64,000 nucleotides of DNA from Geodermatophilus sp. YIM 151500 (lineage in GTDB: Bacteria > Actinomycetota > Actinomycetes > Mycobacteriales > Geodermatophilaceae): NCBI RefSeq assembly GCF_025716945.1, contig NZ_JAOVZT010000001.1, positions 468,271-532,270 of the forward strand, read 5' to 3'. The notes beneath the pieces were generated by a model. That model saw only the letters and a program-made list of their open reading frames with translations. It was not told the origin of the DNA and made no database searches. Numbering within the stretch: position 1 is the first letter of the stretch; each line of letters begins with the position of its first letter. Positions 47,350 to 60,861 of this stretch are shown here, piece by piece. The position numbers were made by a program, and so were the translations under genes.

Positions 47350-48940
47350 AGGAAGGGTCCCTCCGTGGGTGCGTGCGGTCGGTCGTGCGGGGTCCGGCAC
47401 CGCGGCCGGCCGCGAGCCGGGCCGCCCCGGCCAGCGGGGCCAGGTACGGCTGCAGGGCCGGGTACAGGTGTTCGTAGACGTGGTACAGGCGCTCGTAGAC
47501 GGCGCTGGTCTGCGCATCGGCCGTCGGCTCGACGCGGGTCGTCGCCACGGGGACGGCGGCGCGGGCGGCGGCGGCCGGGCCGGGGTGCAGGCCCGCCGCG
47601 GTGGCCGCCAGCAGCGCGGCACCGCGCGCAGCGACGTCGCCCTGGCGGGCGCGCAGGAAGACCCGGCCGGTGACGTCGGCCTTGACCGCGGTCCAGAAGG
47701 CGCTGCTGGTCCCGCCCCCGACGGACACCAGCTCGGGGAGCGGGTTGCCGCTGACCCGCCCCTCGAGCTCGATCAGCTGCCGCAGGCCGTAGGCCGACCC
47801 CTCGAAGACCGACCGCGCCAGGTCGGCCGGCCCGGTGCCGAGGGTCATGCCGAACCAGACGCCGCGCGCGTGCGGGTCCCACACGGGGCTGCGCTCCCCG
47901 GCGAGGTAGGGCAGGAAGACCAGGCCGCCGCTGCCGGGCGGCGCGGAGGCGGCCAGCTCACCGAGCGCCGCCATGCTCGACGCTCCCGGCGCCTGCGCCA
48001 GCACGTGCTCGCGGAGCCAGGACACGCTCGCCCCGCTGGAGGACATGGCGGCGTGCGACAACCACCGCCCGGGGATCACGTGCGGCCGGCTCATCGCGTG
48101 CGCGGCCGGCAGCGGGCGGTCCCGGCACACGGTGAGCACCCCCGACGTCCCGACGGACTCGAAGGCGTCCCCGTCGTCGACGCAGCCGACGGCCAGCGCG
48201 GAGGCCGCCGTGTCGGCGCAGCCCGCGGCGACGCTCGTCGCCGCCGGGAGGCCGAGGACGTGGCGCGCCTCGTCGGTGACCGCGCCGACGCGCTGGGCGG
48301 ACGGCACCAGCTCGGGGAGTCGCAGCCGCTCCAGCCCGAGCACCGCCGCACCCTCGGCGGACCACCGCTCCGGAGACGAGACGTCCAGCGCCCCGGTGTA
48401 GGCGGCGTTCGTCGGGTCCATCACCCAGCACCCGGTCAACCGGTGGACGACGAACGAGGCCAGGTGCCCCAGCACCGCCGGGCCGCCGGTCGCCGCGGCG
48501 AGCCGCCGGGCGGTCAGGGCGGAGCACGTCGACACGGCCACCGGGTTGCCGGTCATCCGCTCGAACGCGCCCTCGGGCAGTCGCGTCCGCAAGGCGTCCA
48601 CGTCGTCGGCGGCGCGGGCGTCCGCGAAGGTGCAGACCGCGGAGAGCAGCCGTCCGTCCGGATCGGCGACCAGCGGCGTCGGGCAGGCGGCGGCCACCCC
48701 GACGCCCGCCACCGCCACGCCCGGCACGTCGTGCAGCAGCGCCCGGGTGGCCGCGACGACGGCCGCCCAGACGTCCTCGGCGTCGACCTCGCTGTGGCCC
48801 GGATGGGGGGACCGCACGGCGAGCGCGACGCGCCGCAGGCCGAGCTGCACGCCGTCCGGGGTGTACAGCCCGGCCTTGACCGCGCTCGTGCCGACGTCCA
48901 GGCCGAGCAGGACGTCGTCGGTCCCGGGCCGACCGGTCAC
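47333..48940 (-). CDS. FGGY-family carbohydrate kinase
   Basis: A 535-residue kinase of the FGGY family (xylulokinase-like). The N-terminal phosphate motif reads LLGLDVGTSAVKAGLYTPDG and the C-terminal domain has FLPYLAGERSPVWDP and LVSVGGGTSSAFWTAVKADVTG. Family members phosphorylate ketoses, polyols or autoinducer-2 (LsrK). The GTG start overlaps the DctM stop (GTGA). It overlaps the aldehyde dehydrogenase start by 17 bases. Substrate unassigned. Confidence 0.92.
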   Translation of the reverse strand: MTGRPGTDDVLLGLDVGTSAVKAGLYTPDGVQLGLRRVALAVRSPHPGHSEVDAEDVWAAVVAATRALLHDVPGVAVAGVGVAAACPTPLVADPDGRLLSAVCTFADARAADDVDALRTRLPEGAFERMTGNPVAVSTCSALTARRLAAATGGPAVLGHLASFVVHRLTGCWVMDPTNAAYTGALDVSSPERWSAEGAAVLGLERLRLPELVPSAQRVGAVTDEARHVLGLPAATSVAAGCADTAASALAVGCVDDGDAFESVGTSGVLTVCRDRPLPAAHAMSRPHVIPGRWLSHAAMSSSGASVSWLREHVLAQAPGASSMAALGELAASAPPGSGGLVFLPYLAGERSPVWDPHARGVWFGMTLGTGPADLARSVFEGSAYGLRQLIELEGRVSGNPLPELVSVGGGTSSAFWTAVKADVTGRVFLRARQGDVAARGAALLAATAAGLHPGPAAAARAAVPVATTRVEPTADAQTSAVYERLYHVYEHLYPALQPYLAPLAGAARLAAGRGAGPRTTDRTHPRRDPSCVGSA

Positions 48941-50223
48941 GGCACTCCCCGGTCGGTCAGCAGCTCGACCGGCCAGAGGGTGACCTGCGGGACGACCGCG
49001 AGCACGACCAGGGCGACCAGCATGATCAGGTAGTGCGGCCGGGAGGCCCGGGCGATGCGCTCGATCGGCAGACGGCTGACGTAGGAGGTCGCGAAGAGGC
49101 AGACGCCCACCGGCGGGGTCACCAGCCCGAACGAGAGGGCGGCGACGAGGAAGACGACGAAGTGGATCGGGTCGATGCCGACCGCCAGGGCGGTCGGCAT
49201 CAGGACGGGCACCAGGATCAGGATCGCCGCGATGATGTCCATAACCGTGCCGACCAGCACCAGCACCACGCCGAGCAGCAGCATCACCACCGTCGGGTCG
49301 TCCGACACCTCGGCGACGGCCGTGCTGACCCGCACCGGCAGCCCGTCGATGGTGAAGATGTAGGACGCCGCGCTCGCCACCATGGCGATGAACAGCACGG
49401 TGCCCGTGCTCACGCCCGAGCGGATCAGCATGCCGGGGATGGCGCGCACCCCCAGGTCCCGGTAGAGCAGCACGCCGACCGCGAGGCTGTAGACGACGGC
49501 GAGCCCGGCGGCCTCCGTGGGCGTGACGAACCCGCCGAAGATGCCGCCCAGGATCACCACCGGCCCGCCGAGGGCGGGCAGCCCGACCGCGATGGAGCGC
49601 ACGGCGGCGCGGAGCGAGGTCCGCGACACCTCGCCGTAGCCGCGGCGCACCGCGGTGACGTAGTTGAGGACCATCAGCGAGACGATGAAGACCACGGACG
49701 GGCCGATCCCGCCGGCCAGTGCCGCGCCGATCGACTCCCCTGCCGCCGCCGCGGCGACGATCATGAGGATGCTCGGCGGGATGACCGAGGACAGCGTCGA
49801 GGTCACCATCGTCATCGCCGCCGCGTAGTCCCGCGGGTACTTGTGGTCGGTCATCGCCTTGATCTCGATCTGACCGAGGCTGGCGACGTCGGCCACCGAC
49901 GAGCCGGAGATGCCCCCGAAGACGGCGCTGCCCAGGATGTTCACCTGGCCGAGGCCGCCGCGCCAGCGGCCGACGACCGCCTCGGCGGCGTGGAATATCC
50001 GGTCGGAGATGCCGCCGCCGGCCATGATGTTGCCGGCGAGGATGAACAGCGGGACCGCGACGAGCAGGAAGCTGTTCATCGACGTGTACATCGACTGCGG
50101 CACGAGGTCCAGCGGCAGGTCGAAGACCAGCAGCGTCGCGATGACGCCCAGGCCCAGGGCGACCGCCAGCGGGACGCCCAGCGCCGCGAGGACGAGGAAG
50201 ACGGCGAGCAGCGTGTAGCTCAT
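48937..50223 (-). CDS. dctM: TRAP transporter large permease DctM
   Basis: A 428-residue membrane protein with twelve or more helices, the DctM subunit of a TRAP transporter. SMNSFLLVAVPLFILAGNIM and GISGSSVADVASLGQIEIKAM are typical. VTPTEAAGLAVVYSL and VTPPVGVCLFATSYV carry the two conserved hairpins. The ATG at 50223 overlaps the DctQ stop. With DctP and DctQ it imports a carboxylate or sugar acid driven by ion gradients. Confidence 0.95.
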   Translation of the reverse strand: MSYTLLAVFLVLAALGVPLAVALGLGVIATLLVFDLPLDLVPQSMYTSMNSFLLVAVPLFILAGNIMAGGGISDRIFHAAEAVVGRWRGGLGQVNILGSAVFGGISGSSVADVASLGQIEIKAMTDHKYPRDYAAAMTMVTSTLSSVIPPSILMIVAAAAAGESIGAALAGGIGPSVVFIVSLMVLNYVTAVRRGYGEVSRTSLRAAVRSIAVGLPALGGPVVILGGIFGGFVTPTEAAGLAVVYSLAVGVLLYRDLGVRAIPGMLIRSGVSTGTVLFIAMVASAASYIFTIDGLPVRVSTAVAEVSDDPTVVMLLLGVVLVLVGTVMDIIAAILILVPVLMPTALAVGIDPIHFVVFLVAALSFGLVTPPVGVCLFATSYVSRLPIERIARASRPHYLIMLVALVVLAVVPQVTLWPVELLTDRGVP

Positions 50224-50858
50224 GACGCGGTCATCTCCCCGCGCTCGAGGCGCCGACGGATCTCGACGGAGCGGTAGACCGACTGCAGGTGGCCCAGGAC
50301 CGCCAGCACGGCCGAGACGATGATGGGCAGCGTGGCGATCCACATGCCGATGCCGAGGGCGGGCGAGGTCTCCTCGCTCTCGTACTGCTGCACGACCAGC
50401 TCCCACCCCTGGTAGCCGACGACGACGAAGAACGTGACGCCGGCGGCCACGTAGAGGTGGACGGCCGCCCGCTGGGCGAACCGGGGCAGCTTGGCGACGA
50501 CGAAGGCGATCCGGGCGTGGTCGGCGTGCCGGAAGCCGGCCGCCATGCCGAGGAACGCGGTGTAGATGAACAGGAAGCGCGTGAGCTCCTCGGTCCAGGG
50601 CACGGCCGCGCCCAGCGACCGCGAGACGACCTGGAGGCTCACCGTGAGGACCATCCCGAGCACGCCCACCAGGACGACCGCGTCGACGACCTTCCAGAGG
50701 GGTCCGTGCGGCTCGAGCCGGGCCGAGGCCGGGACGTAGTGCTCGGCCGACTCCACGAGCGGCACGTGCCCGCCGGCGACGGGGCCCGCGGGGAGCGCCG
50801 GGTCCGGGGCGCCTCCCCGGCCCGGCGTGCCCCGGCGGCCCGCCATGCTGAGCCTCAT
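50220..50858 (-). CDS. dctQ: TRAP transporter small permease DctQ
   Basis: A 212-residue protein with four hydrophobic helices starting near residue 62. RFLFIYTAFLGMAAGFRHADHARI is the DctQ signature. The ATG at 50858 overlaps the DctP stop (ATGA), so I prefer it to the internal ATG at 50846. The N-terminal 60 residues are Gly/Pro/Arg rich and poorly conserved. It stabilises the DctM channel. Confidence 0.9.
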   Translation of the reverse strand: MRLSMAGRRGTPGRGGAPDPALPAGPVAGGHVPLVESAEHYVPASARLEPHGPLWKVVDAVVLVGVLGMVLTVSLQVVSRSLGAAVPWTEELTRFLFIYTAFLGMAAGFRHADHARIAFVVAKLPRFAQRAAVHLYVAAGVTFFVVVGYQGWELVVQQYESEETSPALGIGMWIATLPIIVSAVLAVLGHLQSVYRSVEIRRRLERGEMTAS

Positions 50859-51901
50859 CCCTGCTCGACGAAGGCCAGGGTCTCGGCGACGAAGTCGGCG
50901 CCGACGAGGTCCTCGAACTGCGGGTAGAGCTTCCGCGCCTCCTCCTGGAAGGCCGCCATCTGCTCCGCGGAGAGCTCGTTGACCTGCATGCCGTTGGCCT
51001 CGAGGTCGGCGATGGCCTTGTCGGCCTGCTCGTCGTCGTACTGCCGCTTGTACTCGGCGGTCTCGGCGGCGGCGTCGCGCAGGATCTGCTGGGCCTCCTC
51101 GTCCAGACCGGCGAACTTGTCGGCGTTGAAGCCGAGGATGTACCCGTCGACGATGTGGTTGGTCAGCGACAGGTAGTCCTGGACCTCGTAGAACTTGTTC
51201 GCCAGCGGCACCTCGACCGGGTTCTCCTGGCCGTCGATGACGCCGAGCTGCAGGGCCGTGTAGACCTCGGTGAAGTCCATCGGGGTGGGGTTGGCGCCCA
51301 GGGCTCCGAAGAACTCCACCCACAGCTCGTTGTTGGGCACCCGCAGCTTCAGCCCCTGGAGGTCCGCCGGGTCCTCGATCGGCTGCTTGGAGTTGGTCAC
51401 CTGGCGGAAGGTCCGGGTCATCATCGCCAGGCCCTCGGTGTTCACCTTGTCCAGCGAGTCGAGCAGCGTCTGGCCGGGCTCGCCTTCGAGGTAGGACACG
51501 TACTGGTCGAAGTCGTCGAACAGGTAGGGCAGGCTGATCGCGTTCATCCGCGGCTCGAACGACGCGTAGACCGACGTCGAGAGGATGGTCCCGTCGATCG
51601 TGCCGTTCTGGACCTGGTTGACCGCCGCGTTCTGGTCGCCGCCGAAGAGCGTCCCGTCGGGGTAGACCTCCACGGTGATCCGCCCGTCGCTGCGCTCGGC
51701 CACCTCGTCGGCGAAGTGCTCCGCGGTGACGCCGACCGACGACGTGGCGGGGTCGCCGACGGCGAGCCGCAGGGTCACTTCCTCACCCCCGCCGGCGCCT
51801 CCACCGGCGCCCCCGGAGCCGGCGGAGTCGCCTCCGCCACCGCCGCAGGCGGTCAGGGTGAGCGCGGCTGCGGCGACGGTGCTGATGACGCGGACGTTCA
51901 T
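50855..51901 (-). CDS. dctP: TRAP transporter substrate-binding lipoprotein DctP
   Basis: A 348-residue solute receptor. The signal peptide has lipobox LTAC (Cys19) followed by a Gly/Ser linker. RITVEVYPDGTLFGGDQNAAVNQVQNGTIDGTIL and LRVPNNELWVEFFGALGANPTPMDFTEVYTALQLG are hallmark DctP regions; the Arg of LKLRVP probably binds the substrate carboxylate. The ATG at 51901 has GGAGGA upstream and overlaps the GntR stop codon (ATGA). Confidence 0.94.
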   Translation of the reverse strand: MNVRVISTVAAAALTLTACGGGGGDSAGSGGAGGGAGGGEEVTLRLAVGDPATSSVGVTAEHFADEVAERSDGRITVEVYPDGTLFGGDQNAAVNQVQNGTIDGTILSTSVYASFEPRMNAISLPYLFDDFDQYVSYLEGEPGQTLLDSLDKVNTEGLAMMTRTFRQVTNSKQPIEDPADLQGLKLRVPNNELWVEFFGALGANPTPMDFTEVYTALQLGVIDGQENPVEVPLANKFYEVQDYLSLTNHIVDGYILGFNADKFAGLDEEAQQILRDAAAETAEYKRQYDDEQADKAIADLEANGMQVNELSAEQMAAFQEEARKLYPQFEDLVGADFVAETLAFVEQG

Positions 51902-52605
51902 GCGGATTCCTCCGGATCGGTGGTGCGCAGGTCGGCCGGGGCGGCCGAGGCGTGGACGGTGGCGACGAGCGTGTCGCGCGCCGAGAGGATGTGGGCCACG
52001 AGCGCGTCGGTCGCCCCGGGGACGTCCCGGCGGGCGAGCGCGCCGCAGATCGCGCGGTGCTCGCCGAGGCTCTGGTCGACGCGACCCTCGTAGCGGTACG
52101 AGGTGAAGTGGCGGAACCGGCTCAGCTCCCGGGACAACAGGCGGTAGGCGTGCGCGAGCCGGCGGTTCTCGGCCGCTCCGACGATCGTCGCGTGGAACTC
52201 GTCGTCGACCCGTAGGTAGCGGGCGATGTCGTCGGTGCCCATCGGCGTCGAGAAGTCGTCGAAGAGGGTCACGAACCGCCGGAGGCGGTCGTCGTCCCAG
52301 GACGCGATGCGCGGCACGCCGGCCGGCTCCAGCAGGCACCGGAGGTCGAAGAGCTCCTCGACGTCGCGCACCTCGACCCGGGTGACCGACCAGCCCACCC
52401 GGCCCCGCCGCTCGACCAGGCCGGTCGACTCGAGCTGCCGGAGGGCGTCCCGCACGGGCGTACGGGAGACGCGGAGCTCCTCGGCGAGCTGACGGTCGCT
52501 GAGCGCCGCACCCGGTTCGATGCGGCACTCGACGATGGCCCGCTCCAGGGCCTCGAAGACCCGGGAGCTCACCCGCTCGACGTCGAGCGGCTCGAGACTG
52601 CTCAT
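51898..52605 (-). CDS. GntR/FCD-family transcription regulator
   Basis: A 235-residue regulator. The N-terminal winged HTH reads LEPGAALSDRQLAEELRVSRTPVRDALRQLESTGLVERR-like sequence (about residues 25-62 of the chosen protein). The C-terminal FCD domain (about 90-215) has His-containing DDEFHATIVGAAENRRL and LGEHRAICGALARRD, which usually bind metal plus an organic acid. I chose the start at 52605 because FCD regulators begin shortly before this helix; an alternative ATG at 52665 has a better ribosome site. Its stop overlaps dctP, so it heads the operon and probably autoregulates at the nearby GGTAT/ATACC dyad. Confidence 0.88.
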   Translation of the reverse strand: MSSLEPLDVERVSSRVFEALERAIVECRIEPGAALSDRQLAEELRVSRTPVRDALRQLESTGLVERRGRVGWSVTRVEVRDVEELFDLRCLLEPAGVPRIASWDDDRLRRFVTLFDDFSTPMGTDDIARYLRVDDEFHATIVGAAENRRLAHAYRLLSRELSRFRHFTSYRYEGRVDQSLGEHRAICGALARRDVPGATDALVAHILSARDTLVATVHASAAPADLRTTDPEESA

Positions 52606-52611
52606 GTACTG

Positions 52612-52626
52612 GGTATACCGAATACC
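52612..52626. promoter_or_regulatory. GntR-type operator
   Basis: GGTATACCGAATACC is a dyad with arms GGTAT and ATACC and a five-base spacer. It lies 7-21 bases upstream of the preferred GntR start and resembles GTATAC-type FadR/FCD operators. A site here would repress the GntR-TRAP operon. Confidence 0.6.
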
Positions 52627-52782
52627 GGGCTGGGGCGGAAGAGCGTCGACCTCAACTCCGCTCATCACCTGCCCTCCCTCCGACACCGGACCGGACGCTA
52701 TGGCGTGGGTCACTGCCGGGATGCTCCAACCGCTCACGGGTTCGTGTCAAGAGGGCGCCATGGGTGCACTTTCCGCTCACCG

Positions 52783-52816
52783 GTTGCGCGAGTCGCTCAT
52801 GCCGTTGCACGAGTCG
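52783..52816. promoter_or_regulatory. Direct repeats with 21-base spacing in the GntR-DeoR interval
   Basis: GTTGCGCGAGTCG (52783-52795) and GTTGCACGAGTCG (52804-52816) lie exactly 21 bases apart, two helical turns, in the divergent region between the two regulators. A GCTCAT motif (52795-52800) overlaps the end of the first copy. Confidence 0.5.
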
Positions 52817-52862
52817 ACCGCTCGCTGGCCCGTCCGCCCCGCGGTTCTTGACGGCAGAAGGC

Positions 52863-52914
52863 ATGAGCGGTTCAATCATCGTGTGATCAGTTTGCTCATC
52901 GAGTTGACATGAGC
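52863..52914. promoter_or_regulatory. Inverted ATGAGC/GCTCAT array at the DeoR start
   Basis: ATGAGC occurs at 52863-52868 and at the DeoR start codon (52909-52914); GCTCAT occurs at 52894-52899. GCTCAT-N9-ATGAGC is a perfect dyad covering the DeoR start, so autorepression at the start codon is plausible. DeoR-family regulators often use such repeated sites. Confidence 0.5.
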
Positions 52915-53730
52915 GGTCCCGAGGGCCGGCTGCCGGCACACGTGCGGCGGGAGCAGATCGTCCAGCTGCTCGTCCGCCGCGGGGACCAGCCGCTCCCCGT
53001 CGAGGAACTCGCCGCGACGTTCGGCATCTCCCCGGCGACGGCCCGCCGCGACCTGGAGCAGCTCCGCGGCGAGGGCCGCATCACCCGGACCTACGGGGGC
53101 GCGGTGCTGGGCGCGGCCTCGGCCGAGCAGTCCGTGCGGCAGCGGGAACTGAGCCATGCGGCCGAGAAGGACGCGATCGCCCGGGTCGCCGCGGACCTCG
53201 TCCAGCCTGACTCCGTCGTCCTGCTCGACGCCGGCAGCACCACGGAGCGCCTGGCCCGGCAACTGCGCACCATCCCCGGGCTGACCGTGGTCACCAACGG
53301 CGTGGCGGCGACGACCACCCTCCTGGAGTCCGGCGACACCGAGATCGTCGTGCTGGGCGGCCGGCTGCGACGGATCAACCAGACCATCAGCGGATCGACG
53401 GCCGAGCAGATGGTCCGCGGTCTCTACGCGGACGTCGCCTTCATCGGCGCCGACGCGGTGGACCCGCGGCGCGGGATCGCCTCGCGCACGCTGGAGCAGA
53501 GCGTCCTCAAGTCCGTGATGGCCGAGCACGCCCGCACCGTCGCCGTGGTCGCCGACTCGACCAAGCTCAGCGGCGGGTGGACCTCCTACTGGTCACCCCT
53601 GCAGCGGCCGTGGCTGCTGCTCACCGACGACGGCGCCGATCCCGGCGTCCTCGAGTCCTTCCGGACGGCGGACCCCCACGTCGAGGTCGTCGTCTGCCCG
53701 GTCGCCACGACCGGGACCGCCACCGGCTGA
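52909..53730 (+). CDS. DeoR/GlpR-family transcription regulator
   Basis: A 273-residue regulator. The N-terminal HTH reads PVEELAATFGISPATARRDLEQL. The C-terminal sugar-phosphate-binding domain has LLDAGSTTERLARQL, VTNGVAATTTLL and VAVVADSTKLSGGW, typical of DeoR sensors of sugar phosphates. It is divergent from the GntR-TRAP operon and directly upstream of the zinc alcohol dehydrogenase and aldolase genes. The inducer is probably a pathway sugar phosphate. Confidence 0.94.
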   Translation: MSGPEGRLPAHVRREQIVQLLVRRGDQPLPVEELAATFGISPATARRDLEQLRGEGRITRTYGGAVLGAASAEQSVRQRELSHAAEKDAIARVAADLVQPDSVVLLDAGSTTERLARQLRTIPGLTVVTNGVAATTTLLESGDTEIVVLGGRLRRINQTISGSTAEQMVRGLYADVAFIGADAVDPRRGIASRTLEQSVLKSVMAEHARTVAVVADSTKLSGGWTSYWSPLQRPWLLLTDDGADPGVLESFRTADPHVEVVVCPVATTGTATG

Positions 53731-53797
53731 GGCCGGCAGCGATCGAACCCGCCGCGCGCGCGAGCGCCCGTCCCCGGCCGAACTGGAGTCGCGAAGC

Positions 53798-54841
53798 ATG
53801 AAGCAAGCCGTCCTGCACGCCCCGCTGGACCTCAAGGTGGAGGACGCGGACGTGCCCGCCCTGGAGTCCGGCGACGTGCTGCTGCGCGTCGAGAGCGCCC
53901 TGGTGTGCGGCACCGACGTCCGCATCTTCGAGGGGCGGAAGAAGCGCAACGTCACCTACCCGACGGTGATGGGCCACGAGTTCTCGGCCACGGTCGTGGA
54001 CTCGGCCGGCGTGCTGCCCGACGGCGTGTCCGAGGGAGCCCTCGTCTGCGTCTACCCGCTGCTCCCGTGCGGCGAGTGCGTGGCCTGCACGCGCGACCAC
54101 CCGAACATCTGCCGCAACCGCGTGGCCTTCGGATACCAGCTGGCGGGTGGCTTCTCGCAGTACGTGCGCGTGCCCGCCGCCGCCGTCCGCGCGGGGAACC
54201 TCGTGCCCGTCGGGACCGCCTCGCCGGGTGCCGGTGCCCTCGTCGAACCCCTGGCCTGCGCCTACAACGGGCAGCGGCTCGCGTCCGCGGCAGGAGCGCC
54301 GTCGATGCTGGTGAGCGGCTGCGGCCCGCTCGGCCTCATGCACATCCGGCTGGCCCGCCAGCTCGGCGTGCAGCGGATCGCCGCCGTCGACCCGATCGAG
54401 CAGCGCCGCGCGGCCGCCGCGACCTCCGGCGCCGAGCTCACCCTGGCCCCGGGCGAGGACGCCGCCCGGCAGGTGCTCGACTGGACCGGCGGTGCCGGTG
54501 TCGACGTCCTGGTGATGGCCGTGGGCCGCACGGACGCGCTGCACCCCTACCTGGGCGTCCTCGCCCCCGGCGCCCGCGTGAGCGTCTTCGCCGGCTTCAG
54601 CGGCGAAGGCACCGCCCTGGAGATCCCGGCCAACGACATCCACTACAACGAGTGGACCGTCGTCGGCGCCTCGTCCTGCCGGCTCGACGACTTCCAGCAG
54701 GTCGCCGGCCTCGTCCGGTCCGGAGCGCTGCAGGTGGACGACCTCGTCGGCGCCCAGCTGCCGATCGACGAGGCCGTCGGTGCCATCGAGCTCGCCGCCT
54801 CCGGCCGGGACATGCGCGTCGGCATCGCCCCCTGGGCCTGA
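53798..54841 (+). CDS. Zinc-dependent alcohol/polyol dehydrogenase
   Basis: A 347-residue medium-chain dehydrogenase. The catalytic zinc region is VCGTDVRIFEG followed by GHEFSA; the structural zinc Cys cluster is CGECVACTRDHPNIC. The nucleotide fold is LVSGCGPLGLMHIRLARQLG. It probably oxidises a polyol or sugar alcohol to a ketose, the first catabolic step of the island. GGAG lies upstream of the ATG. Confidence 0.93.
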   Translation: MKQAVLHAPLDLKVEDADVPALESGDVLLRVESALVCGTDVRIFEGRKKRNVTYPTVMGHEFSATVVDSAGVLPDGVSEGALVCVYPLLPCGECVACTRDHPNICRNRVAFGYQLAGGFSQYVRVPAAAVRAGNLVPVGTASPGAGALVEPLACAYNGQRLASAAGAPSMLVSGCGPLGLMHIRLARQLGVQRIAAVDPIEQRRAAAATSGAELTLAPGEDAARQVLDWTGGAGVDVLVMAVGRTDALHPYLGVLAPGARVSVFAGFSGEGTALEIPANDIHYNEWTVVGASSCRLDDFQQVAGLVRSGALQVDDLVGAQLPIDEAVGAIELAASGRDMRVGIAPWA

Positions 54842-54887
54842 GCCTCCCTCCCCTCCATCCCACCCCTGCGACGACTGAGGACCCCGC

Positions 54888-55787
54888 ATGACCGCCACGT
54901 TGAACCCGGCCGCCCCCGCCGGCTCGTCCACGTCCCTGCCCGACGGTCGCCTGCCCCGCGGCCCGCTGCAGATCACCCCCTACGGCAGCACCGCCGCCCT
55001 CGGCCGGGCCATCCGGCTGCGCCGGATCTTCGGCGAGAGCGGGCGCACCGTGACCGTGGCCCTCGACCAGGCCGTGCCGCGGGGCGTGGCACCCCGGCTG
55101 GCCGACATCGGGCCGACCTACGCCGCCGTCGCGTCCGCGCGGCCCGACGCGATCACGATGTTCAAGGGCCTCGCCGCTGCGGTGCTCGCGCACAACACGA
55201 CGCCCGTGCCGTTCATCATGAAGGCGTCCACCTTCTCCGTGGACTTCCACCTGACCCGCGAAGCGACCGTCGGCACGGTGGACGAGGCGCTCCGGCTGGG
55301 TGCCGACGCCGTCGCCGTCGGCATCAGCGCCGGCTCCGCGCACCAGGTCGAGGGCTTCTCCGAGCTGGCCGCGATCACCGCGCGCGCCTCCGAGGTGGGC
55401 CTGCCGGTCGTCTGCCACGCCTACCCGAGCGGCGAGCTCTGGGCCGAGGACAAGAAGGGCAGCACCGAGGCGGTCCTGTACGCCGCACGGGCGGCCGCCG
55501 AGATGGGCACCGACATCGTCAAGACCTGGTACACCGGCTCGACGGCCGAGTTCGCCAAGGTCGTCGAGGGCGTGCCGGCCATCGTGGTGGCGGCCGGCGG
55601 GGCCAAGGCCGACAACCCGCTGGACGTGCTGCGCCAGGCCGCCTCCGTCGTGGAGGCGGGGGGCTACGGGGTGACCACCGGACGCAACGTCTGGGGAGCG
55701 GCCGACCCGGCGAAGATGGTGCGTGCGCTGCGGGCCGTCGTGCACGAGGGCGAGCGGCCCGAGACGGCGGCCAAGCTGCTGGACTGA
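54888..55787 (+). CDS. DhnA/LsrF-type class I aldolase
   Basis: A 299-residue TIM-barrel protein. The family start reads VTVALDQAVPRGVAP and the Schiff-base lysine is probably in DIVKTWYTGS. GVTTGRNVWGAADPAKMVRAL is a late barrel segment that binds phosphate. Class I fructose-bisphosphate aldolases, transaldolase-like enzymes and the AI-2 thiolase LsrF belong here. In this cluster it most likely cleaves a ketose phosphate. A strong hairpin follows. Confidence 0.9.
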   Translation: MTATLNPAAPAGSSTSLPDGRLPRGPLQITPYGSTAALGRAIRLRRIFGESGRTVTVALDQAVPRGVAPRLADIGPTYAAVASARPDAITMFKGLAAAVLAHNTTPVPFIMKASTFSVDFHLTREATVGTVDEALRLGADAVAVGISAGSAHQVEGFSELAAITARASEVGLPVVCHAYPSGELWAEDKKGSTEAVLYAARAAAEMGTDIVKTWYTGSTAEFAKVVEGVPAIVVAAGGAKADNPLDVLRQAASVVEAGGYGVTTGRNVWGAADPAKMVRALRAVVHEGERPETAAKLLD

Positions 55788-55793
55788 ACGACC

Positions 55794-55844
55794 GACGGAC
55801 CCGCCCCCCGGCCGCGTGGTGCCCGGCCGGGGGTCGGGTCCGTC
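55794..55844. terminator. Hairpin terminator between the catabolic island and the F420 gene
   Basis: The outer stem GACGGACCCG (55794-55803) pairs with CGGGTCCGTC (55835-55844), and an inner stem of nine C/G pairs (55805-55813 with 55825-55833) extends it. It sits between convergent genes. Confidence 0.85.
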
Positions 55845-56921: not shown

Positions 56922-59174
56922 TCAGCTGCGGCCCAGACCGACCAGCGTCACGTCGTCGGTGTCGGGCGGGTCGAGGGCGGCGAGCACGTCGTCGAGCAGC
57001 TGCTGCGGCTCCGCGGACGCCGTCGCGACGGCGGCGCGCAGCGCGTCCAGGCCCTCGGTGAGGCTCGCGCCGCGCCGCTCCACCAGGCCGTCGCTGTACA
57101 GCAGCAGCCGGTCGGCCGCGCGCAGCCGAACCCGCGACGCGGTGTAGCCGGCGGTGTCGAGCAGGCCCAGCGCCGGGCCGCGGCCGTCGGTGAGGTAGTC
57201 CGCGCCGTCCGGCGTGCGGCGCAGGACCGGCAGGTGGCCGGCGCTGGCGACGGCCACCTCGCCGCTGGACGGGTCGAGCTCGGCCACGACGGCGGTCGCC
57301 AGCTCGCCGGGCAGCAGCGCGGCGACCAGCTCGTTGAGCGCCTGCAGGGCCGCGGCCGGGCCGAGGTCGCGCAGCAGGTGGGCGCGCAGCGCGTGGCGCA
57401 GCTGGGCGGTGACCGCCGCGGCGGCCAGGCCGTGCCCGGCGACGTCCCCGAGCACGACCGACAGGCGCCCGCTGGGCAGCGGCACCAGGTCGTACCAGTC
57501 GCCGCCGACCACGTCGGCGGCGCTCGGCCGGTACCGCGCGGCCAGCCCCACCCCCGGGACCTTGGGCAGCTCCTCCAGCAGCAGGGTGCGCTGCAGGGTG
57601 ACGGCGAGCCGGTTCTCCTCGTGCGCGCGGGCGCGCGCGGCCTCGGTCACGGCGGTGGCCAGGGCGCGGGCGGCGGTGACCTCGTGCGCGCGCCACGGGC
57701 CGGCGGTGCCGCGGACGGTCTCGCTCCACCGCTCGAACGACCGCCGCGGGGACAGCCGCGGGCCCTCGGCGTCCTCGGTGACCTCGCCGTCGTGCGGATC
57801 GCCGCCCCAGACGACCTCCCGCAGCGTCTCGGGCCGGAACCAGGCGAGGAAGTCACCGGGCCCGCCGCCGGCCCGGACGACGAGCACGCCGCTGGCGGTG
57901 GCGGCCAGATCGGCCGCGTCCGGCACCACCTGACCCAGCGCGTCGGTGACCCGGACGCCGGGCTCGTCCTCCGCGCCCGAGGCGAGCAGCGCGGTGACCA
58001 GCGGCGCCACGCGGTCGGCCGGCGGCGTCTCGCCGAGCAGCACCAGCCGCCCGTCGAGCCGCACCGCGGCGCCTCCCGCGGGCAGCAGGTCGAGCACGGT
58101 CGGCCCGCCCTCGGTGAGGGCCCGCGCCGGGGCGCGCGGCGAACGGCCGACGGCGGCGACGAGCTCGGCCTGCCGCCGGGCGACGCCGACGACGTCACCC
58201 GTCTCGACCTCCGCGACCTTCGTGTGCAGCAGCAGCGACGCGGTCCGGCCGAGGAACTCCGCCGCCGTGCGATCCGCGTAGGACGGCCGATGCGGGCCGC
58301 TGTAGGAGTGGCAGGCCACCAGGCCCCAGAGCCGGCCGCGATCGATCAGCGAGATCGACATCGAGGCGACCACGCCCATGTTGGCCAGGTACTCCAGGTG
58401 CACCGGCGAGACGCTGCGCAGCATCGCGCCGGAGAGGTCCAGCGGACGGCCGGTCAGCGGGTTGGTGGCCGGGTGCAGCGGCACCGGCGCGTAGCCGGCG
58501 TCGGGGATGAGCCGCAGCCAGTTGATCGCGTACAGCGCGCGGGCCTGGGCCGGGATGTCGCCGGCCGGGTAGTGCAGGCCCAGGAAGGGTTCGAGGTCGG
58601 CGCGCCGGCTCTCGGCGACGACCTCGCCGTTCCAGGCGGCGTCGAACCGGTAGACCATCACGCGGTCGAAGCCGGTGAGCGCCCGGACGTCGCCGGCCAG
58701 GACGTCGGTCAGCTCCGGGAGCGTCTCGGTCGCCGAGAGCCGCTGCAGCACCGTCGGCAGCCGCCGGTGCCAGGCGACACCGACCTCCTCCGCGCCGAGC
58801 ACCGGCTCCCACTCGGTGATCAGCAGGCCGTCGGCGCGGTGCAGCACCAGGTCGACGTCGGTCTCCCCGACACGGAGGCGCACCGGGTTGACCTCGGCCA
58901 GGTCGCCCGGCAGGACCACCCGCAGCCGGGCGCGGGCGGCGGGGGCGAGCAGCTCGTCGAGCCGCCGGCCGGCGGGGTCGGTGCCGAACAGCGCGCCGGC
59001 GTTGGCCGAGGTGACGACGACGGTCAGGTCGGGCTCGGTGACCGCCAGCAGCACGCCGTGCGGCTGGACGGCGCCGGGTACGGCGATCGGCTCGTCGGCG
59101 CAGCGGAGCAGTGCCTCGTCGGGGATCCGACCGGCGCCGCCGGTGCCCCCGCCGCCGGCTGGCCGGCCGGCTAT
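56922..59174 (-). CDS. Bacteriophytochrome-SpoIIE (PP2C) phosphatase
   Basis: A 750-residue fusion if started at the ATA at 59174. PAS (about 30-115) carries Cys25 before EPIAVPGAVQPHG, the bacteriophytochrome bilin Cys. The GAF domain (about 135-295) has Y202-P203-A204-G205-D206-I207-P208 and the conserved His of SPVHLEYLANMGV and ACHSYSGPH. PHY (about 305-490) has a complete tongue: WFRPE, WGGDP and LSPRRSFERWSETVRG. A PP2C/SpoIIE domain (about 525-745) has GGDWYD, LGDVAGHG, YSDGLVERRG and DDVTLV. No ATG, GTG or TTG start is available; ATA overlapping the STAS stop is the natural place. The product should couple red/far-red light to dephosphorylation of the STAS protein. Confidence 0.85.
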   Translation of the reverse strand: MAGRPAGGGGTGGAGRIPDEALLRCADEPIAVPGAVQPHGVLLAVTEPDLTVVVTSANAGALFGTDPAGRRLDELLAPAARARLRVVLPGDLAEVNPVRLRVGETDVDLVLHRADGLLITEWEPVLGAEEVGVAWHRRLPTVLQRLSATETLPELTDVLAGDVRALTGFDRVMVYRFDAAWNGEVVAESRRADLEPFLGLHYPAGDIPAQARALYAINWLRLIPDAGYAPVPLHPATNPLTGRPLDLSGAMLRSVSPVHLEYLANMGVVASMSISLIDRGRLWGLVACHSYSGPHRPSYADRTAAEFLGRTASLLLHTKVAEVETGDVVGVARRQAELVAAVGRSPRAPARALTEGGPTVLDLLPAGGAAVRLDGRLVLLGETPPADRVAPLVTALLASGAEDEPGVRVTDALGQVVPDAADLAATASGVLVVRAGGGPGDFLAWFRPETLREVVWGGDPHDGEVTEDAEGPRLSPRRSFERWSETVRGTAGPWRAHEVTAARALATAVTEAARARAHEENRLAVTLQRTLLLEELPKVPGVGLAARYRPSAADVVGGDWYDLVPLPSGRLSVVLGDVAGHGLAAAAVTAQLRHALRAHLLRDLGPAAALQALNELVAALLPGELATAVVAELDPSSGEVAVASAGHLPVLRRTPDGADYLTDGRGPALGLLDTAGYTASRVRLRAADRLLLYSDGLVERRGASLTEGLDALRAAVATASAEPQQLLDDVLAALDPPDTDDVTLVGLGRS

Positions 59175-59524
59175 GACGGGTCCCCGTGCCGCCGGCCCGG
59201 TGGCAGGCTCTCCACGACGGGCACGACGGAATCGACGTCGAGCAGGTCGAGCACCAGCCGCACCGGCCCGTTGTCGCGCGGGCAGAGCAGTTGCACGGTC
59301 ACGCCGTCGGCCTGCCCCTGCCGGCCCAGCCGGACCAGCTGCCGGGCACCGGAGGAGTCGAGGAACGTCGTGGCGGAGAGGTCGACGACCAGCGCGGCGG
59401 GCCGTCCGGCCAGCTCGGCCGCGCCGGCGGCGGCCAGGACGGGCGCCGTGGCGATGTCGAGCTCGCCGCGGACGACGAGCGCCGGGCGGCCGGAGACCGT
59501 CGTCCGCTCCACGTCGAACAGCAC
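59171..59524 (-). CDS. STAS anti-anti-sigma factor (RsbV-like)
   Basis: A 117-residue STAS protein. The phosphorylatable serine lies in TTFLDSSGARQLVRLG. MLFDVERTTVSGRPALVVRGELDIATAPVL opens the fold. The GTG start has GGAGGAGGG upstream. Its stop overlaps the phytochrome-phosphatase region. In partner switching, unphosphorylated STAS binds an RsbW-type kinase and frees a sigma factor; the linked SpoIIE phosphatase would reactivate it. Confidence 0.93.
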   Translation of the reverse strand: MLFDVERTTVSGRPALVVRGELDIATAPVLAAAGAAELAGRPAALVVDLSATTFLDSSGARQLVRLGRQGQADGVTVQLLCPRDNGPVRLVLDLLDVDSVVPVVESLPPGRRHGDPS

Positions 59525-59583
59525 GACCGTTCCCTCCTCCCGCCGGCTTCTGGGAGAGTAGCCGCACCCGTCTGCGAGGTCCC

Positions 59584-60036
59584 ATGAAGATCGACTTCAC
59601 CGTCACCCTGCCGGTCGACGTCCACAGCGTGCCGTTCGTCCGCGGGTTGTGCCGGGAGGCGCTCGAGCACATGGCGGTGGAGCGCCGCACCATCGACGAG
59701 GTCGTGCTCGCACTGACCGAGGCCTGCGCCAACGTGGTCGACCACGCCGGCGGCGGGGCGTACGAGGTGCGGGTGCGGATCGGCGACGACGCCTGCCGGA
59801 TCAGCGTGCTCGACGCCGGTGCCGGCCCCGACGCGGCGGAGACCCGCGACCCGCCCGGTGCCGACGCCGACGGCGACTCCCGGGCGGAGCGCGGGCAGGG
59901 CCTGCTGCTCCTGCAGGCGCTGGTCGACCAGCTCGACTTCGTCCGGGAGCCCGACGGGCGGCACCGGGTGATGCTGGAGAAGCGGCTGACGCCGCGCGCG
60001 CCGCTGCGCCTGCTCGACCGGCCGGACCCCTCCTGA
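59584..60036 (+). CDS. RsbW-like anti-sigma factor/kinase (HATPase)
   Basis: A 150-residue GHKL kinase. The N box reads LALTEACANVVDHAGG and the G boxes are VLDAGAGPDAAE and RGQGLLLLQALVDQLDF. It probably phosphorylates the neighbouring STAS protein and binds a sigma factor encoded elsewhere. The ATG has GAGG upstream. It is divergent from the STAS-phytochrome pair, so the three genes make up one signalling unit. Confidence 0.92.
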   Translation: MKIDFTVTLPVDVHSVPFVRGLCREALEHMAVERRTIDEVVLALTEACANVVDHAGGGAYEVRVRIGDDACRISVLDAGAGPDAAETRDPPGADADGDSRAERGQGLLLLQALVDQLDFVREPDGRHRVMLEKRLTPRAPLRLLDRPDPS

Positions 60037-60047
60037 CGTCCACCGGC

Positions 60048-60164
60048 ATGGCGACGTCGGAGGCGGCACGACGGCTGCGGACGGTGCTCGCGGGCGGCAG
60101 CTACGTCGAGGGGCCGCGCTGGCACGCCGGCTCGTGGTGGGTGTCGGACTGCAGGTGCTGCTAG
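60048..60164 (+). pseudogene. Truncated SMP-30/gluconolactonase-like remnant
   Basis: An open frame of 38 residues reads MATSEAARRLRTVLAGGSYV, then EGPRWHAGSWWVSD, typical of the N terminus of SMP-30/gluconolactonase-type beta-propellers, and then stops as CRCC. The remaining propeller is missing. It directly follows the RsbW-like gene. It may be the leftover of a deletion. Confidence 0.6.
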
Positions 60165-60829
60165 CGGTCACGCGCGGCGGGAGCGCCCCCGGACGGGCCG
60201 GCGGCGTCGTCCGAGCCCGCCTCGTCATCGGCGTCGGCGCCGCTGCCCCGGTCGCGGGCGAGCAGGAAGGTGGCCCCGCCGAGGAGCAGGCCGGCCAGCA
60301 CGGACGCGCCGACGATCGCCGGCGTCCCGACGTCGCCGAGCAGGTCGGTGAGCAGCACCCGGGACTCCGACGTCGGGTCGGCGAGCACGACCCCGACGAA
60401 GACGGCGACCAGCAGGCCCGCGGCCACGGCGAAGACGTGCGAGAAGCGGCCGGTGAACCCGAACCGCTCGCGGACCTCGCGGGCGGCCCGGACGATGCGG
60501 CGGGCACGCAGCACGCGCAGGGCGCCGACGGTGCGCACCAGCCGCAGCACCTGCACCGGCCCGACGGCGAGGACGACGGCGACGAGCACCACGACGGTGA
60601 GCGCGATCAGGCCGACGTGCCCGCGGATCCACGCGCGGCGGTCCTCGGCGACGGCGACCAGGACGACGGTCTCGGCGACGAGCACCACACCGCTGGCGAT
60701 GTCGACGACGCGGCCGGTCGCCCCCCACACGCCCGGGGCGATCGCCAGGAACATCGCCGGGATGCTGGTGAGCGCGGCGACGAGCACCGGCAGGGCGAGC
60801 CGCCGCTGCCAGCGCTCCTCCCGGCTCAC
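60161..60829 (-). CDS. Ion-channel-like (voltage-sensor-type) membrane protein
   Basis: A 222-residue membrane protein with four to six helices. The segment LRLVRTVGALRVLRARRIVRAAREVRERFG has Arg every third or fourth residue, the mark of an S4 voltage-sensor helix. The selectivity filter TVGYG of potassium channels is not seen: the pore-like stretch reads LLGDVGTPAIVGASVL. It may therefore be a voltage-sensor protein without a normal pore. The GTG at 60829 starts a plausible N terminus (SREERWQRR). The acidic C-terminal tail is Asp/Gly rich. Confidence 0.75.
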   Translation of the reverse strand: MSREERWQRRLALPVLVAALTSIPAMFLAIAPGVWGATGRVVDIASGVVLVAETVVLVAVAEDRRAWIRGHVGLIALTVVVLVAVVLAVGPVQVLRLVRTVGALRVLRARRIVRAAREVRERFGFTGRFSHVFAVAAGLLVAVFVGVVLADPTSESRVLLTDLLGDVGTPAIVGASVLAGLLLGGATFLLARDRGSGADADDEAGSDDAAGPSGGAPAARDR

Positions 60830-60861
60830 GGCCGCCACGCTAGTGCGCCCCGGCCCGACCC

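Follow-up and report, generated by a model that had tools for sequence, protein, structure and literature searches.

A bacteriophytochrome-SpoIIE phosphatase gene inherited with STAS and RsbW-like kinase genes in Geodermatophilaceae: a candidate light-gated partner switch

Introduction

The RsbP/RsbU-RsbV-RsbW switch of Bacillus subtilis joins a sensor-linked PPM phosphatase, with a helical linker, to a STAS protein and a HATPase kinase, the sensor being a PAS domain in RsbP and an RsbT-binding domain in RsbU, as set out in the relevant passages of PMC12143880 and PMC3019169. According to the pertinent part of PMC3019169, red light acts on SigB in Bacillus subtilis, with a requirement for RsbP/Q, and also in Listeria, where the route is unknown. 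Among bacteriophytochromes, the PadC phytochrome-diguanylate cyclases combine a photosensory module, a helical linker and an enzyme (PMC9587094, in the section concerned), and the legend of Fig. 2 in the same source lists the SpoIIE/PPM phosphatase as a bacteriophytochrome effector. Since this effector class is already named there, a phytochrome-SpoIIE fusion is not in itself new. Here we describe a locus at positions 56922-60036 of a 64,000-nucleotide stretch of DNA from Geodermatophilus sp. YIM 151500 (hereafter the window), in which a gene of this kind lies beside genes for a STAS protein and an RsbW-like kinase.

The locus shares its phosphatase, STAS and kinase components and its helical linker with the Rsb switch, but has a phytochrome as the sensor; it differs also in having a divergent kinase gene and in that a search of the locus detected no SigF-like gene, as far as the Rsb switch is covered in the passages cited above. 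In comparison with PadC, the output is a serine phosphatase in place of a diguanylate cyclase. The PAS-GAF-PHY-SpoIIE class of PMC9587094 is the same kind of fusion, and the passages of that source dealing with it describe neither a STAS or kinase neighbour nor a tested function; the present work delimits a class that has both neighbours and shows that the three genes are co-inherited.

Results

The long frame of the locus (56922..59177, minus strand) comprises 751 codons counted from a GTC at 59177-59175 and has no canonical start codon. Pfam profiles matched it, all over their cut-offs, with PAS_2 at residues 26-126 (58800..59102; E 3e-19), GAF at residues 155-313 (58239..58715; E 2e-14), PHY at residues 336-516 (57630..58172; E 7e-46) and SpoIIE at residues 568-748 (56934..57506; E 2e-43), all on the minus strand. 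A complete phytochrome photosensor occupies the place at which a SpoIIE phosphatase usually has its input, as a first-pass annotation of this DNA had proposed, and Pfam detected no histidine-kinase domain in the protein, in keeping with its claim of a route without a histidine kinase. The first residue of the PAS_2 match is the chromophore-binding Cys, which that annotation numbered 25; the residue itself is present, and its number is 26 when counted from 59177 and 25 if the following codon is taken as the first. The GAF domain carries the PAGDIP motif (D207) together with H260 and H290, and the PHY domain carries WGGDP and the tongue motif PRRSF, so that the DIP motif and tongue claimed earlier are both there. 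The phosphatase has the aspartates D560, D578, D696 and D742, with GGDWYD just ahead of the Pfam match. Upstream on the same strand, a frame at 59171..59524 (minus) encodes a STAS protein of 117 amino acids (Pfam, E 7e-11) of the anti-anti-sigma type, whose candidate phospho-acceptor is Ser57 in an LDSSG motif. Beyond a gap of 59 bp (59525-59583), an RsbW-like HATPase_c_2 kinase of 150 amino acids (Pfam, E 1e-20) is encoded divergently at 59584..60036 on the plus strand. The positions, strands and order of the three genes were as first annotated.

We found that this arrangement recurs in related species. A cross-species scan with one genome per species, in which the best 80 of 191 matches were followed up, gave 78 loci, 51 of which belong to the same protein class as the window (class A, 69-76% identity over the best segment). 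Within this set, a STAS gene preceded the phytochrome gene on its strand, no more than 700 bp upstream, in 51/51 class A loci, and a kinase gene was divergent and at most 200 bp from the STAS gene in 44/51. Such a search for relatives with adjoining STAS and RsbW-like genes had been suggested in the first-pass annotation as a check, and its outcome supports the grouping. In one locus (L018), frames including a cytochrome P450 (L018:4013-5413, Pfam) separate the kinase and STAS genes, the kinase still being about 3 kb off. A P450, recognised by its resemblance to that of L018, was also observed upstream of STAS at the usual place of the kinase in L019 (L019:4038-5438), and the kinase was not found in that locus.

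In a survey of 112 Geodermatophilaceae genomes, a phytochrome-SpoIIE match was present in 90 (that listed for G105 spans residues 23-480 only): class A occurred in 55 genomes and a second class, class B, in 77, with 42 genomes having both and 13 having class A only. An orthologue of the STAS gene was found in 55 of the 112 genomes, which are exactly those with class A, and was well separated from other matches (E of 2.2e-37 or lower, the next best being 6.6e-17). The kinase orthologue occurred in 53 of the 55 class A genomes and in 0/57 others, again with a clear separation (E of 1.8e-59 or lower as against 1.3e-13). These data tie the STAS and RsbW-like genes to the phytochrome-SpoIIE gene across the family. 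A hypergeometric value for the kinase (4e-30) ignores kinship and was not used.

The residues expected of a functional photosensor and phosphatase were conserved. In a residue-conservation alignment of 46 rows, out of 79 proteins, invariant positions comprised C26, D207, R222, R254, H260, Y263, S272, S274 and H290 of the bilin pocket, P477-R478 and S480-F481 of the PHY tongue, and the four phosphatase aspartates D560, D578, D696 and D742. The protein thus has PAS, GAF and PHY in order, with the Cys before PAS, the DIP Asp, the pocket His and the PRxSF tongue motif that we take to mark bacteriophytochromes, and the profile match together with the metal-binding aspartates places its C-terminal part in the SpoIIE/PPM family. 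The closest solved structures to the photosensor by sequence were bacteriophytochromes (6bap, E 2.4e-110). The match to the NCBIfam BphP equivalog NF041576 missed its cut-off (325.6 vs 1040 bits) and stops at residue 521, ahead of the phosphatase. A sequence search of solved structures with the SpoIIE part alone gave no relative at E 0.01, and phytochromes or phytochrome chimaeras were among the 50 matches listed in a fold search with the whole predicted model.

The spacing between PRxSF and GGDWYD was 80 residues in 76/76 proteins having both motifs (79 proteins in the set, 3 dropped for want of one of them). An AlphaFold2 model (mean predicted local distance difference test, pLDDT, 86.6; predicted template modelling score, pTM, 0.63) shows a single unbroken helix between PHY and phosphatase, at residues 497-532 (57582..57689, minus strand). 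A helical linker of fixed length, as modelled here, is what transmission through a coiled coil would require. Coiled-coil control of a PPM phosphatase has been demonstrated for RsbU and proposed more widely for PPM phosphatases, in the passages of PMC12143880 on this subject. The constant spacing contrasts with the PadC linkers, which vary, mostly by sevens, according to the corresponding part of PMC9587094.

Ser57 of the STAS protein was present in 52/52 aligned sequences, so that a STAS domain is combined with a conserved phosphorylatable Ser in a DSSG motif, as in anti-anti-sigma factors; the closest solved relatives were the anti-sigma factor antagonist 4qtp and then RsfB (8ih8). In the kinase, E46, N50, D77, G79, G81, G104 and G106 were conserved in 48/48 sequences of an alignment that omits L030, whose reference has a stop codon. 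Its HATPase_c_2 domain has the N, G1 and G2 boxes of the RsbW/SpoIIAB type, and its best solved relative was RsbW (6m36, E 6.5e-5), an anti-sigma F factor giving a weaker match (1til, E 0.08). In the intergenic regions, the STAS strand has the hexamer TAnnnT at aligned columns in 44/45 cases; in the window it reads TACTCT (59555..59560, minus strand), about 30 bp ahead of the STAS start, as a -10-like element. Its conservation suggests a housekeeping-type promoter for the putative STAS-bphP transcription unit, TAnnnT and GGGTA being what we take to be the consensus forms. A Sigma-B-type promoter for the module was considered and rejected: the aligned site carries TAnnnT, and by eye no GGGTA-type element was seen there. 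A search for inverted repeats returned 12 short pairs.

The first-pass annotation had gone further, suggesting that light controls the release of a sigma factor, and for a sigma factor bound by the kinase the present results gave no support. A tblastn search with the SigF of this genome (E 1e-3), covering the 51 class A loci with flanks of up to 6 kb and the window, detected no SigF-like gene, and as a positive control the query recovered its own locus. The genome has one sigma factor over the SigB/F/G cut-off. It lies about 280 kb from the module and has regulators of its own, namely a HATPase directly upstream, an adjoining SpoIIE-HATPase-STAS protein and a further STAS gene nearby. In that locus (L184, G000:C11:240000-252000), we observed that the SpoIIE-HATPase-STAS protein, of 618 residues, is encoded divergently from the HATPase-sigma pair, and that the HATPase has, by eye, an Ile at the expected Asn of the N box. 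Genome-wide there are 12 SpoIIE domains and 22 HATPase_c_2 domains over the cut-off among 30 matches listed, some of the latter 22 proteins probably being histidine kinases. With a single SigB/F-type sigma for so many components, each switch can hardly have its own sigma; this leaves a choice between several switches acting on the same sigma and some switches having other clients, and we give the two equal weight.

The first of these would make the general stress sigma the target of the module, whose kinase would bind the SigF/SigB-type sigma of the genome, light setting that sigma free. We regard this as possible rather than probable. The relationship of the kinase to RsbW and of the STAS protein to two anti-sigma factor antagonists, the second being RsfB, is consistent with it, as is the existence of one suitable sigma, but the relatives' loci and the window have no SigF-like gene and the sigma is already provided with a HATPase, a SpoIIE-HATPase-STAS protein and a STAS gene. 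The other would make the client of the kinase a non-sigma regulator or an enzyme, the output of light being different or indirect, and to this too we can give only restrained credence. It would agree with the lack of a SigF-like gene in the neighbourhoods of the 51 relatives, with the large excess of HATPase_c_2 proteins over SigB/F-type sigma, and with the score of the kinase, well under the NCBIfam RsbW equivalog cut-off (37.5 vs 145 bits). The cut-offs of other RsbW/SpoIIAB equivalog models (31.5 vs 155.05 and 23 vs 135 bits) and of the RsbA-type subfamily (44.7 vs 210 bits) were likewise missed. Against a non-sigma client, no evident candidate lies beside the module, as the frames flanking it in the window have matches in at most 15/52 loci. 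Neighbours shared by the relatives and missing at that place in the window are a DUF4011 helicase-like protein (43/52), threonine dehydratase (39/52) and RtcB (25/52), which look unconnected with the module and are probably not its clients.

The start of the phytochrome frame raises a different question. Within 90 codons upstream of the Cys, the window has no in-frame ATG, GTG or TTG, in contrast to 51/51 class A relatives, which have one within 90 codons of the Cys position. At the codon where the relatives start, the window has the GTC mentioned above. In five relatives (L025, L034, L041, L044 and L062), the STAS stop and the phytochrome start overlap as GTGA, judging from their coordinates; at the corresponding place, within 59171-59180, the window reads GTC ATA G, and the STAS frame extends by one extra codon to TAG. 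A base change, a sequencing error or near-cognate initiation would each fit this. It is thus conceivable that the gene is damaged here, its start codon being lost and the module decaying, or that the base is a sequencing error. Interrupted frames do occur among the relatives, since those of L046, L048 and L062 are short and the phytochrome matches of G012 and G030 are each split in two. However, the remaining 751-codon frame is open and retains the catalytic and pocket residues, and a near-cognate codon could serve for initiation; we consider damage rather unlikely.

A light sensor of this type would depend on a bilin chromophore. A PF01126 profile scan found no heme oxygenase in the window genome, and in other genomes of the family it found weak heme oxygenases beside class B phytochromes. 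A second model, made from 8 heme oxygenase sequences of Geodermatophilaceae, matched 87/112 genomes and detected in the window genome an orphan bphO-like heme oxygenase (L185, G000:C6:14221-14823; E 8.3e-88), a frame that scores 27.3 bits with Pfam against a cut-off of 23. The absence of a heme oxygenase, which would have argued against light sensing, was thereby overturned, and the predicted gene elsewhere in the genome is a putative source of biliverdin. With both models pooled, a heme oxygenase match occurred in 90/90 genomes with phytochrome-SpoIIE, including 13/13 with class A only. A phytochrome match was lacking in 22/112 genomes; of these, the 7 with a completeness of 90% or more (G033, G053, G061, G071, G073, G074 and G075) had no heme oxygenase match (0/7), and the less complete G036, G097 and G099 (80% or below) each had one. 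That the phytochrome part senses something else, such as redox state or temperature, and that its bilin pocket is a relic, is a general possibility to which the loss of the Cys in one relative may be added, but the invariance of the pocket in the 46 rows and the way heme oxygenase tracks the phytochrome, 90/90 with it vs 0/7 without it at 90% completeness or more, make it very improbable.

Class B proteins have the same domains and the same 80-residue spacing, and are 42-45% identical to the window protein in the alignment (43-49% for the best match per genome in the 112-genome survey). We compared the neighbourhoods of 15 class B loci (L158-L172), out of 77 genomes. Unlike in the class A module, heme oxygenase lies just upstream in 14/15 (the exception being G104), and the STAS and kinase of the module had no match at E 1e-3 in these 15 loci. 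From this comparison, the partners of the switch go with class A, and the enzyme for the chromophore usually goes with class B. A midpoint-rooted tree was built from the photosensory modules of 54 selected proteins. In it, Geodermatophilaceae class A grouped with Quadrisphaera and a sequence filed as Streptomyces sp. NP160 (support 99/96), followed by Cellulomonas and Actinotalea; class B was placed apart, together with Oerskovia and a Nocardioides record (support 99/93). The Quadrisphaera and NP160 loci have a related kinase divergent from the phytochrome, with no STAS match adjoining. We also noted that L058, labelled Bacillus sp. AZ43, holds a Geodermatophilaceae-like module and L053, labelled Streptomyces sp. 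NP160, a Quadrisphaera-like one; because of these resemblances both labels are probably wrong. In Actinotalea soli, the phytochrome-SpoIIE gene is flanked at its 3' end by a strong heme oxygenase gene (L054:8165-8839; Pfam 188 bits) on the opposite strand.

Elsewhere in the window, Pfam gave no match for the frame at 60164-60838. The region 48900-55800 holds a cluster that, from its translations, presumably encodes a TRAP-type transporter, GntR- and DeoR-like regulators, an alcohol dehydrogenase and an aldolase-like protein.

Discussion

The architecture, the conservation of motifs, the fixed linker spacing, the co-inheritance of the three genes and the presence of a heme oxygenase gene are together best explained by a light-gated partner switch, an explanation that we consider probable, with some reserve. 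Biliverdin, probably supplied by the orphan heme oxygenase, would bind the phytochrome, and red/far-red photoconversion would be relayed by the PHY tongue and the helical linker, whose length is fixed, to the SpoIIE/PPM phosphatase. Once active, this enzyme would dephosphorylate Ser57 in the product of the adjoining upstream STAS gene, and unphosphorylated STAS may bind the divergent RsbW-like kinase, pulling it off a second client, which could be a sigma factor, perhaps the SigF of the genome, or another protein. Bilin binding, STAS dephosphorylation and kinase sequestration are here inferred from the behaviour of known families. More specifically, and more tentatively, we propose a self-contained red/far-red switch that is inherited as a unit in Geodermatophilaceae, acts on a client other than a sigma factor of its own and does without a histidine kinase.

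Several observations weigh against a light-gated partner switch. The STAS protein scores below the cut-off of the NCBIfam antagonist model TIGR00377 (38.7 vs 53.45 bits), the kinase is far under that of RsbW, as given above, and among solved structures the histidine-kinase ATPase domain of DevS ranks second as a relative of the kinase (E 0.002). L031 (Blastococcus sp. CCUG 61487) has a Ser where the chromophore Cys is expected, its class A protein being typical in other respects. Two of the 55 module genomes (G022 and G027) have no kinase orthologue, and the co-inheritance counts of 55/55 and 53/55 ignore shared ancestry, adjacent genes travelling together in any case. The heme oxygenase match of G027, a class A-only genome, contains one TGA; those of G063 and G108 likewise contain TGA. 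To these is added the lack of a usual start codon in the window.

Among the open-access papers listed in literature searches, we found no description of the trio of phytochrome-SpoIIE, STAS and kinase, subscription journals being mostly outside the search. As judged from its genes, the trio would represent partner switching with a phytochrome input, of which the fusion is known and the co-inherited trio was not found described.

To our knowledge, the role of phytochromes in non-photosynthetic bacteria of soil and stone is largely open. That the three genes are inherited jointly suggests a path by which light could act on cell regulation in these organisms with no histidine kinase involved. As sensor, phosphatase, probable substrate and kinase are contained in one cassette, which occurs in genera available in culture, Geodermatophilus and Blastococcus among them, three proteins could suffice to reconstitute the path from light to the partner switch, and the cassette, with its conserved linker length, may offer a model from nature on which to design an optogenetic serine phosphatase.

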